The notes beneath the pieces were generated by a model. That model saw only the letters and a program-made list of their open reading frames with translations, made no database searches and was not told the DNA's origin. Of a stretch of DNA of 63,863 nucleotides, positions 2,934 through 23,730 are shown piece by piece. Location of the stretch: contig JACPIQ010000027.1 in the NCBI GenBank assembly GCA_016188005.1, positions 1 to 63,863 on the forward strand, read 5' to 3'. A program made the position numbers and the translations under genes. Each line of letters opens with the position of its first letter. Position 1 is the first letter of the stretch. Source of the stretch: Candidatus Rokuibacteriota bacterium. Lineage in GTDB: Bacteria > Methylomirabilota > Methylomirabilia > Rokubacteriales > CSP1-6.

Positions 2934-3458
2934 TCAGGCCTTCTGCTCTCGTCCGTAGTCCTTCAGGTATTCGCGCATCCGCTCCTTGGCCCGGAAGATG
3001 CGCGACTTCACCGTCCCGACCGGGCAGTCCATGATCCGCGCCACATCCTCCAGGGGGAACCCTTCCACCTCGGCCAGCAGCAGCGGGGTCTTGAACTCTT
3101 CCGGAAGCCGGGCCAGGGCCCGCTCGAGGTCGGTGTGCACCTCGGTGCTGGCGCCGCCCTCATCCGGGGCATCGTGGAACATGGGCGCCCCGCCCGCCGG
3201 AACGCCGTCCTCGGAGAGCGCCGGCTCGCGCTCCCGCAGCCGGTAAAAGGTGAGGAACGTATTCCTCAGGATCTGAAACAGCCAGGCCCTGAGATGGGTT
3301 CCCCGCTCGAAACGATGGGAGAAACGCATCGCCCGGACATAGGTCTCTTGCACCAGATCCTGGGCCTCCGAGCCGTTCCGGGTCAGATAGACCGCGAGGT
3401 TGTGGAGTGCGTCCAGGTGCTGGAGGGCCTCCTGGCGAAACTCCTCGTCGGGGTTCAT
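2934..3458 (-). CDS. ECF-family RNA polymerase sigma factor
   Basis: A 174-residue ECF sigma factor. Region 2 is at about residues 25-80 (EAQDLVQETYVRAMRF, then a tryptophan-containing RAWLFQILRNTF). Region 4 is at about 115-160 (LPEEFKTPLLLAEVEGFPLE and CPVGTVKSRIFRAK), the helix-turn-helix that reads the -35 element. The acidic linker between them is normal for the group. It lies inside the fol/leu gene run, 22 bases after folK, and is followed immediately by its likely membrane regulator. Target promoters cannot be deduced from the window. Confidence 0.92.
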   Translation of the reverse strand: MNPDEEFRQEALQHLDALHNLAVYLTRNGSEAQDLVQETYVRAMRFSHRFERGTHLRAWLFQILRNTFLTFYRLREREPALSEDGVPAGGAPMFHDAPDEGGASTEVHTDLERALARLPEEFKTPLLLAEVEGFPLEDVARIMDCPVGTVKSRIFRAKERMREYLKDYGREQKA

Positions 3459-21030: not shown

Positions 21031-21693
21031 CTACCGGCCCGGCCGCTCGGGCCCGGGCGGATGCGGGCCTGGCAGGCCGGGCCTGCCGCGGCGCGGGAGC
21101 TCCTCCCGGCGCGGCAGGCCCTGGCCGCCCTGCCGCTCGCGGCGCTCCCGCCACACTTCGCGCGCACGCTGGCGCTCCGCGGGGGTCATGGCACGCCAGC
21201 GCTCCAGATTCCGCTCCACGCGCTGGCGCTCCTCCGGCGTCATGGCCTGGTACTGGCGGAAGCGCTGGAGGAGCTGCTGCTGTCGCTCGGGGGGCAGCCG
21301 CCGGAAGCGCTCGTGGGCGGTCTCCAGCTCGCGCTGGCGCTCCGCCGGTAGCGAGTTCCACCGCTGGAGGTCCTCGAGGATCCTGGCGCGCTCGGGCGGG
21401 CTCAGCTTCCCCAGCCGCTCCTGGTTCTGCCGCGCCGCCCTGCGCTCCTCCGGGGTCAGCGACTTCCAGTGCCGGTAGTTGTCAAGGACGCGCTGGCGCT
21501 CGGCGGGAGGCAGGGCCCGCCAGCGCTCCAGATTCCGCCGGACGATCTCCTGTTCCTCGGGGGAGAGCCGCTCGAGCCCCTGGATCCCTGGCTCGGAGGG
21601 CTGGCCCCGCGGCGGCAGCTGGGCCAGCGGCGCACCCGTGTCGGCCATCAGCATGGCCGCCGCCAGCGTCGCCACCCACAGGAGCCTCACCAT
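21031..21693 (-). CDS. secreted DUF3106-like protein with eight helical repeats
   Basis: A 220-residue protein with an N-terminal signal (LLWVATLAAAMLMADTGAPLA). It then has eight consecutive 17-18-residue units of the pattern L[ST]PxERxxxxxNxxRWRx, for example LPPAERQRVLDNYRHWKS and LTPEERRAARQNQERLGK, followed by a Pro/Gly/Arg tail. The pattern matches DUF3106-type proteins of unknown function and is reminiscent of the LTPxQ motifs of periplasmic CpxP/Spy-like helical proteins. It is the last gene of an operon with an ECF sigma and its anti-sigma, so it is probably a target or partner of that envelope response. Confidence 0.75.
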   Translation of the reverse strand: MVRLLWVATLAAAMLMADTGAPLAQLPPRGQPSEPGIQGLERLSPEEQEIVRRNLERWRALPPAERQRVLDNYRHWKSLTPEERRAARQNQERLGKLSPPERARILEDLQRWNSLPAERQRELETAHERFRRLPPERQQQLLQRFRQYQAMTPEERQRVERNLERWRAMTPAERQRAREVWRERRERQGGQGLPRREELPRRGRPGLPGPHPPGPERPGR

Positions 21694-21694
21694 C

Positions 21695-22048
21695 TCACTT
21701 CACCTCCTTCGAGGACTGCGTCGCAGGCGAGGACCGCGTCGCAGGCTGCCCGGACCCCGTGGGCGCCGCCTGGGGCGGCGGACTCTCCAGGAAGCGGAGC
21801 GCCTCGAGCACGCGGAGCTGCTCCAGCAGCCGGAGCCGCTTGCCGACCTCGCGGTCACGCGCGTAGTCGCCGCTGTTCAGGACGTCGAGGTCCCGCAGCA
21901 TCTCGGCGTCGAGCCTTCCCGCCGGGGCCGGCTGCGCCCCGGCGCCCCGCGCCGCCGGGATCAGCCCGAGCAGCGCCAGCAGGAGCGCCGCGAGCCGGGA
22001 GCCGCCCCGGCCCCGGGGTCCCGGCCGCGGCTCGCCGGCGACGCGCAC
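21695..22048 (-). CDS. small secreted protein sharing a leucine motif with the anti-sigma factor
   Basis: A 117-residue protein with a hydrophobic signal (RLAALLLALLGLIPAARGAG), an acidic/leucine-rich helix (KRLRLLEQLRVLEALRFLES) and a low-complexity tail. The helix resembles the C-terminal tail of the neighbouring anti-sigma (RLQIVQRLELLEDLDVIGG), which suggests the two outside segments may interact or share origin. It begins one base after the anti-sigma stop and ends one base before the DUF3106-like start. No family recognised. Confidence 0.65.
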   Translation of the reverse strand: MRVAGEPRPGPRGRGGSRLAALLLALLGLIPAARGAGAQPAPAGRLDAEMLRDLDVLNSGDYARDREVGKRLRLLEQLRVLEALRFLESPPPQAAPTGSGQPATRSSPATQSSKEVK

Positions 22049-22546
22049 TCACCCCTCACTGGTGAGCGGCAGGCGATCGAGCCCGCCGATCACGTCGAGG
22101 TCCTCGAGGAGCTCCAGCCGCTGGACGATCTGCAGCCGCGAGATGAGGTCGAGCCGGCTCGCGAGGATCGCGTTCTCGATGGCGGCCTGATCCCCCTGGG
22201 TCGGCCCCCACCCGTTTCCGCCGGGCAGGCCGACGTAGAGGAGCACGCCCACGAGTCCGGCTGCCAGGGCCACCGGCACGGGCGGCCAGGCCCAGCGGCG
22301 GAGGAAGCCCGGCCGGGCCCGTCGCCTGCGATCGGCGAGCTTCTCCCTGAGCTCGGCCCGGTAGGCGCCCCAGTGAATGGGCGGCGCCGCCGGTCGCGCC
22401 AGCTCCGCCGCCAGCCGCTCGAGCTCGCCGAGGGCGGCCCGACAGGCCGCGCAGGCGGCCATGTGTGCCTGCACCTCGCGCGCCTCGGCCGGCGGGAGCT
22501 CGCCGCGCAGGTAGGGAACCAGGCGGTCGTCGGCATGACCGGTCAC
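22049..22546 (-). CDS. zinc-finger anti-sigma factor
   Basis: A 165-residue protein with an N-terminal zf-HC2/ZAS motif (HMAACAACRAALGELERLAA, His-x3-Cys-x2-Cys) that would clamp the sigma factor. It has one membrane helix (VPVALAAGLVGVLLYVGL, about 91-108) and a short outside tail rich in leucine. It overlaps the sigma gene by four bases, the standard layout of a sigma/anti-sigma pair. The tail ends in a run of regularly spaced leucines that recurs in the next gene's product. Confidence 0.88.
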   Translation of the reverse strand: MTGHADDRLVPYLRGELPPAEAREVQAHMAACAACRAALGELERLAAELARPAAPPIHWGAYRAELREKLADRRRRARPGFLRRWAWPPVPVALAAGLVGVLLYVGLPGGNGWGPTQGDQAAIENAILASRLDLISRLQIVQRLELLEDLDVIGGLDRLPLTSEG

Positions 22547-23148
22547 GGCGCGCTCCCGATGCGCCGCCTCAGCGTCGTGAAGGCGCGGTGCAGGTGCACA
22601 CGCACCGTCGCCTCCGACAGGCTCAGCACCTCGGCGATCTCCTTGGTGGGCAGCCCCTCCCGGCAGGAGAGCAGCACGGCCGCGCGCTGCTGCTGCGAGA
22701 GCTCCTCCACGGCCTTCCAGAGCCGGCTCATGCGGCGGTCCTCGTCCACGGCATCCCCGGGATCGGTGAAGGGCGCCGGCTGCCGCGCCACGGGATCGCG
22801 GTCCGCCGTGTCGGCCGTGGCGGGATCACGCCAGGACAGGAGCCGACGCCAGCCCCGGCTGCGGCGCCGGTGGTCCAGGCAGCAGTTGACCAGGATGCGG
22901 TAGAACCAGGTGGAGAACTTGGCCTGCCCGGCGAAGGTGCGCGCCGACTCGTGCAGCCTGATGAAGGCCTCCTGCGAGCAGTCCTTGGCGTCTTCACGGT
23001 CCCGCAGCATGGACCACGCGATCCGGTAGGCACGCTCCTGGTACCGCTCCACGAGGAGATCGAAAGCCCCAGGCTCCTGGACGCCGACGCGACGGCAGAG
23101 CGCTTCATCCGAGATCTCGACGGGTTCCACTCGGCCCGATCTTCCCAC
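22543..23148 (-). CDS. ECF-family RNA polymerase sigma factor
   Basis: A 201-residue ECF sigma factor with region 2 at about residues 25-95 (GAFDLLVERYQERAYRIAW, DCSQEAFIRLHES, FSTWFYRILVNCCLDHRR) and region 4 at about 145-195 (LSQQQRAAVLLSCREGLPTK, LSLSEATVRVHLHRAF). The 35-residue acidic linker is within family range. It is co-transcribed with its anti-sigma and two secreted helical proteins, and preceded by a coiled-coil protein gene on the same strand. Confidence 0.93.
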   Translation of the reverse strand: MGRSGRVEPVEISDEALCRRVGVQEPGAFDLLVERYQERAYRIAWSMLRDREDAKDCSQEAFIRLHESARTFAGQAKFSTWFYRILVNCCLDHRRRSRGWRRLLSWRDPATADTADRDPVARQPAPFTDPGDAVDEDRRMSRLWKAVEELSQQQRAAVLLSCREGLPTKEIAEVLSLSEATVRVHLHRAFTTLRRRIGSAP

Positions 23149-23168
23149 ACGCCCATCTCAGCCACCAA

Positions 23169-23208
23169 GCCGGCGGAGGCGAGGCGCGTCGGCCCCGCCC
23201 CCGCCGGC
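23169..23208 (-). terminator. hairpin between coiled-coil and sigma genes
   Basis: Arms GCCGGCGG and CCGCCGGC (eight pairs) with a 24-base spacer in the 68-base gap. It may end or attenuate transcription of the coiled-coil gene before the sigma operon. There is no T tract. Confidence 0.35.
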
Positions 23209-23216
23209 GGCCTGTC

Positions 23217-23594
23217 TCATCGTCCGCGCCGCTGCCTGAGGTCGCGGTGGAGCTCGCGCCGGTCCTGGCGCAGGTCCCGCACGTCGTCGCGCCGGTCCCT
23301 GAGGTCTTCCCGCAGCTCCCGCCGGTCGCTCCGGAGCTCCTGACGCGCGTCTCGGATCCGCTCCGGGTCGCCTGCCCTCACGGCCTCGCGCAGCTCCCGC
23401 CTGTCGCCGCGCAGCTCGAGCCGGTCCTCGCGGATCTCCCGGGTGTCCTGCCGGATTTCCCTCCGGTCCTGGCGGATGTCCTTGAGATCCTGCCTGATCT
23501 CCTGGGCCCCCGCCACCAGGGTCAGGAGCCCCACCACAGCGCAGATGGCGGTCACCGTGATCGCTCCCGCCGTCCAGCCCGTCACTTGCCTCAT
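23217..23594 (-). CDS. secreted coiled-coil protein of heptad repeats
   Basis: A 125-residue protein: signal or anchor (ITVTAICAVVGLLTLVAGA), then about eleven near-perfect seven-residue units of the type IRQDRRE/LRxDRRE. The units are interrupted once near residue 70 by AVRAGDPER, which would make a helical hairpin of two charged arms. GGGAGG precedes the ATG. The strict Arg/Asp/Glu alternation suggests a highly charged envelope protein; no enzymatic motif is present. It lies upstream of the sigma operon in the same direction. Function unknown. Confidence 0.7.
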   Translation of the reverse strand: MRQVTGWTAGAITVTAICAVVGLLTLVAGAQEIRQDLKDIRQDRREIRQDTREIREDRLELRGDRRELREAVRAGDPERIRDARQELRSDRRELREDLRDRRDDVRDLRQDRRELHRDLRQRRGR

Positions 23595-23730
23595 CGCCGT
23601 CCTCCCGTGTCGGGGCGCCCCCCGGATTGGCTACCTTGCCCCATGAGACGGCTCGGGCCGGGCAGGCGTTTACACCTTCGGCCGGGGGAGGCCCCGGGCC
23701 GCGCCTCGCGCGAGTGGGTTCCGGCGGGGA

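Follow-up and report, generated by a model that had tools for sequence, protein, structure and literature searches.

A cluster of five minus-strand genes in a 5.4-Mb Rokubacteria MAG very probably constitutes an autoregulated ECF envelope module. We put at roughly 0.6 the probability that it works as an RseA/RseB-like, autoregulated envelope-stress ECF switch in which a DUF3106 protein is the periplasmic partner of the anti-sigma factor and a small exported protein, p117, is a soluble copy of the anti-sigma tail. The computed basis for this model is a conserved gene order, export and topology signals, a conserved promoter, recurrent envelope targets, a hexad repeat shared by the tail and p117, and the opposite charges of the tail and DUF3106. 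The interpretation offered in the original prediction, made from the letters of the window (the whole 63,863-nucleotide stretch that was analyzed), is thereby supported in part.

The five open reading frames lie where they had been placed, all on the minus strand. Farthest upstream is a gene for an exported hairpin protein of 125 aa, rich in R, D, E and Q (23217..23594), for which Pfam gave no match over the cut-off. The ECF sigma factor (22543..23148; 201 aa) consists, as expected of this class, of sigma2 and sigma4 only: PF04542 (Sigma70_r2, 3e-18) covers residues 32-98 and PF08281 (r4_2, 2e-16) residues 142-192. Its nearest solved chains are SigH, SigW and RpoE. Elsewhere in the window, a second ECF-type sigma region 2 is present at 3228-3422. 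The claim that a zinc-finger anti-sigma gene overlaps the sigma gene holds: the GTG start of the former and the stop of the latter share 4 nt (GTGA, 22546-22543), and the 165-aa membrane anti-sigma factor (22049..22546) matches zf-HC2 (PF13490, 2.5e-10). Its HMAACAAC sequence is an Hx3Cx2C motif, which together with the domain match is as expected of a class I (ASDI) zinc-binding anti-sigma factor; weak sequence matches link it to ChrR and other anti-sigma structures. The GTG of p117 (21695..22048) follows immediately, at 22048, after the anti-sigma TGA. This protein of 117 residues has a signal peptide and belongs to no family in Pfam or NCBIfam. A single nucleotide separates its stop from the start of the last gene (21031..21693), which encodes an exported, basic helical-repeat protein of 220 aa (net charge +15) that is a member of DUF3106 (PF11304, 1.3e-27; 96.8 bits against a Pfam gathering cut-off of 24.3). 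Scans of the operon for Sigma70-type promoters and intrinsic terminators found none.

A footprint across the regions upstream of orthologues revealed a common element, GTAAAC-N17-CGTCNNAY. In the window it reads GTAAAC-N17-CGTCTCAT (23643..23673, minus strand), some 50 nt ahead of the start codon (ATG) of the hairpin gene, and we take it to be a predicted autoregulatory ECF promoter. This site (23673-23643) is the sole one of its kind in the window and the sole exact strict match in the genome. Among 57 genomes of the family, the strict motif had 66 matches compared to 6 for a reversed control, and 29 of the 66 sites are located at the module itself. In loci with a hairpin gene the element stands ahead of that gene; in loci without one, it stands ahead of sigma. 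The hairpin gene, earlier described simply as preceding the sigma gene, is indeed upstream, and the conserved promoter ahead of it indicates that the operon of the window species begins with it. Four loci from other phyla have the same element at the start of sigma, against an expectation of 0.08. ECF systems are characterized by AAC/CGT boxes, an anti-sigma gene transcribed together with sigma, and autoregulation (PMC8103513); at the level of sequence, the 4-nt overlap and the GTAAAC-N17-CGTC footprint conform to this pattern. At three further loci in two genera (L137, L146 and L149; sites near position 1500), a GTAAAC-N17-CGTC promoter is followed immediately by a conserved ORF of 45-49 residues that includes a hydrophobic segment, YLVTHGLP.

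Further sites recur ahead of genes for exported or envelope proteins. LTXXQ (Spy/CpxP-like) genes are predicted targets in four genomes from three genera (G013, G015, G043 and G031), DUF1800 genes in three genomes (G029, G008 and G002, the last in the window's genus), genes for MacA-like efflux adaptors in two (G047 and G028), and a DUF6600-type protein is a predicted target in genus g19. The window's genome has a one-mismatch site, GGAAAC-N17-CGTCTTAC, ahead of a DUF6600 protein, although some one-mismatch matches here are probably due to chance. In genus g9 the predicted target is an exported "PQFxGxWVLD" protein adjoining a PhoD-like phosphatase, and a similar protein is a predicted target in G006. 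At the five g9 loci (L144, L145, L148, L150 and L151), this protein has about 175 residues and the motif PQFxGxWVLDRxQSQ, lacks a Pfam family and is followed by the phosphatase. Finally, G022 has a stand-alone hairpin-like gene with its own predicted promoter. The proposal of an envelope-stress module fits both the predicted autoregulatory promoter and this predicted set of exported and envelope proteins. The regulon also suits another reading, in which the operon's three exported proteins (DUF3106, p117 and the hairpin protein) serve as output only: chaperone-like or structural stress proteins, transcribed along with the regulators, that have no role in sensing, the likeness of p117 to the tail reflecting an old duplication or a generic envelope-associated repeat. 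Effectors are common in ECF operons, LTXXQ chaperones are themselves predicted targets, the hairpin-like gene of G022 stands alone under its own promoter, modules can do without p117 or the hairpin gene, and DUF3106 could work elsewhere in the envelope as a mere regulon effector. We consider this reading possible but rather doubtful in light of how tightly DUF3106 is tied to the locus.

In the window's family, the order hairpin-sigma-anti-sigma-p117-DUF3106 recurs across 33 loci, one of them truncated (L040). In 21 of the 33, a hairpin homologue is encoded immediately ahead of sigma, and p117 is found in all but a few. Its absence from three modules (L026, L027 and L038) indicates that p117 is not essential. 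At L027, which belongs to G006, a DUF1800-like exported protein is encoded directly behind DUF3106; in genus g7 and in G002, DUF1800 is a promoter target in its own right. A DUF3106 protein above the cut-off is present in 62 genomes of the phylum, of which 59 have an anti-sigma gene on the same strand 97-692 bp upstream. Three further families of the class have the same four-gene order, with diverged sequences. Conservation extends to a sample from other phyla, in which an ECF sigma gene lies upstream of DUF3106 on the same strand in 22 of 24 loci; the two exceptions are a decayed locus (L091) and one that ends at a contig end (L094). About half of these loci encode a small exported protein between the anti-sigma and DUF3106. 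The original prediction, which would have fallen without a conserved gene order, is borne out on this point. A chance neighborhood of unrelated genes is extremely improbable, being refuted by the cross-phylum order, the shared promoter, and the overlapping and abutting ORFs. DUF3106 was not found in plasmid records and is absent from 18 genomes of the G095 and G097 phyla. Where it occurs, it is almost always single-copy and bound to the ECF locus across phyla, a tighter association than is usual for an effector and one that argues against a purely downstream role. At one locus from another phylum (L092:2912-4237), a fusion protein joins DUF3106 to a FecR domain that scores barely above the Pfam cut-off; the DUF6600 proteins predicted to be targets of the promoter in genus g19 and in the window's genome are FecR-like.

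The anti-sigma factor is arranged as an HxxxCxxC zinc finger, an Arg-rich stretch, a single hydrophobic segment (residues 88-107) and a tail. Under the positive-inside rule, the position of the Arg-rich stretch ahead of the segment suggests that the tail lies outside the cytoplasm. This tail (residues 123-160; 22067..22180, minus strand) is acidic and carries the hexads LDLISR-LQIVQR-LELLED-LDVIGG. In genus g19 (L041:5591 onward; L028-L030, L032, L036 and L040), the anti-sigma has lost its zinc finger and keeps the juxtamembrane motif PPxxHWGAYRAELREKL, the membrane segment, the tail and an ATGA overlap with sigma. Class I anti-sigma domains without zinc are known (PMC7406223). Since the tail is retained where the zinc finger is gone, it seems to be the more constant part in this lineage, a pattern that also speaks against the exported proteins being output only.

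A regularly spaced leucine helix common to p117 and the anti-sigma tail was part of the original prediction. A shared pattern exists and is strong across relatives, but its period is six residues, not seven, and in the window pair it is modest (z 3.1, p 0.013 for this pair alone). Both the tail and the p117-like proteins have two adjacent hydrophobic residues plus Leu or Met every six residues, as in LELLED-LDVIGG of the tail and LRLLEQ-LRVLEA-LRFLES of the conserved p117 core (21785..21913, minus strand), which resembles the tail by alignment and similarity tests. At locus L093 the hexads read MDMYRH-MDLYEH-MDMIEH and MYEHMDMYEHM. Hydrophobic autocorrelation peaked at lag 6 (z about 10) and lag 12 (z about 7-8) with lag 7 depleted, which rules out a heptad or leucine zipper reading of either protein. 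In 13 of 13 distant genomes, tail and p117 were well above shuffled sequence in similarity. The small protein of L093 and the L028 anti-sigma have hexads that weakly match LED_rpt (PF20854, E 0.003-0.01, below the cut-off), a possible lead on repeat structure. We also considered whether tail and p117 from the same genome resemble each other in excess; a raw p of 0.003 rose to 0.13 with composition-controlled z-scores, and this candidate signal was dropped. The hexad repeat is accordingly a family trait, and the controlled comparison gave no significant sign of pairwise co-evolution.

These results bear on the earlier proposal that a secreted helix may engage the anti-sigma, taken here as direct binding of p117 to the tail by homotypic pairing of hexads, with DUF3106 independent. 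The two proteins do carry the same repeat with similar hydrophobic spacing and their adjacency is conserved, yet both chains are mostly acidic, which disfavors like-with-like pairing, and the pair-specific signal vanished under composition control. An AlphaFold fusion of anti-sigma and p117 (in-frame read-through, TGA=W, three orthologues) was uninformative, giving an unreliable model with pLDDT 40 and pTM 0.23. We judge direct pairing unlikely. By charge, DUF3106 is the better candidate for a ligand of the tail. Anti-sigma tails are acidic in all loci examined (-2 to -14), whereas DUF3106 copies of the family are basic, at +8 or more in all but one, and intact copies outside the family range from +7 to +46. 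The window p117 is +2 as a whole after the signal region and -2 in its core. Modeled alone with AlphaFold2, DUF3106 forms eight helices with an 18-residue period in good confidence (pLDDT about 75-93 over the repeats, 21127..21561, minus strand), in agreement with the eight repeats of the original prediction. A Foldseek comparison of this model with the PDB had a best E of 2.5 and no fold match at E <= 0.001, and a sequence search of the PDB likewise gave no match.

In the model that we favor, the zf-HC2 domain of the single-pass anti-sigma factor would retain sigma at the inner membrane at rest. Basic DUF3106 would bind the acidic hexad tail outside the cytoplasm and keep the anti-sigma intact and inhibitory, as RseB shields RseA; RseB and MucB are known to bind and protect the periplasmic domains of RseA and MucA (PMC7593790). 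Being secreted and soluble and carrying a copy of the tail motif, p117 may compete for, or assemble with, the same partner and so set the threshold. Envelope stress would then pull DUF3106 away, the anti-sigma would be inactivated, probably by regulated proteolysis, and the freed sigma, acting at GTAAAC-N17-CGTCNNAY promoters, would transcribe the operon that encodes it and a limited number of genes for exported or envelope proteins. We infer the contacts of DUF3106 and p117 with the tail, the signal and the proteolysis. Whether DUF3106 and p117 are regulatory through the tail is, in our estimate, about evenly balanced. A bolder form of the idea, in which members of the p117 family are secreted tail mimics competing for DUF3106 as a basic helical-repeat receptor, with the response set by the ratio of tail to decoy in a widespread ECF class, is speculative, and we advance it only tentatively.

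Several known systems resemble parts of this arrangement. Like RpoE-RseA-RseB and AlgU-MucA-MucB, it combines an ECF sigma, a single-pass anti-sigma and a periplasmic accessory in one operon with envelope targets (PMC7593790); it differs in having DUF3106 and p117 as accessories, an anti-sigma built of zf-HC2 and a hexad tail, and a GTAAAC-N17-CGTC promoter. Neither p117 nor DUF3106 had an RseB-like match in Pfam or NCBIfam. In CnrH-CnrY-CnrX, one operon encodes both a small membrane anti-sigma and the helical periplasmic protein that governs it, and the present locus likewise pairs a small membrane anti-sigma with a helical, putatively periplasmic protein. However, CnrY is a class II anti-sigma (PMC7406223), and no CnrX-like match was found here. 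CpxP and Spy (LTXXQ) are, like DUF3106, exported all-helical proteins of envelope stress, and LTXXQ proteins are predicted co-targets in our set; in contrast, DUF3106 is a run of 18-residue helices, and neither it nor p117 matched the LTXXQ profile (PF07813) in Pfam. In Proteobacteria, a DUF3619-DUF3106 gene pair occurs beside ECF sigma genes, and this order, sigma-DUF3619-DUF3106, may be familiar to annotators. Locus L102 bears a likeness to it: sigma is followed by a protein with weak similarity to DUF3619 (E 0.04, under the cut-off) and then DUF3106, with no zinc finger and no separate p117. DUF3106 is unmentioned in the literature searched, which left out most subscription papers. Thus the parts are of a known kind of system, while that literature seems to contain no description of their combination, of the p117 family or of the role assigned to DUF3106.

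DUF3106 is an uncharacterized family, for which a role as periplasmic partner of an anti-sigma factor is plausible. Now that it is placed in one ECF/anti-sigma locus over several phyla, with a conserved promoter and a predicted regulon, its function is open to direct test. The promoter motif is a tool for mapping regulons in uncultured Rokubacteria, and p117, if it does act as a secreted mimic of the tail, would represent a new way of tuning transmembrane stress signaling.
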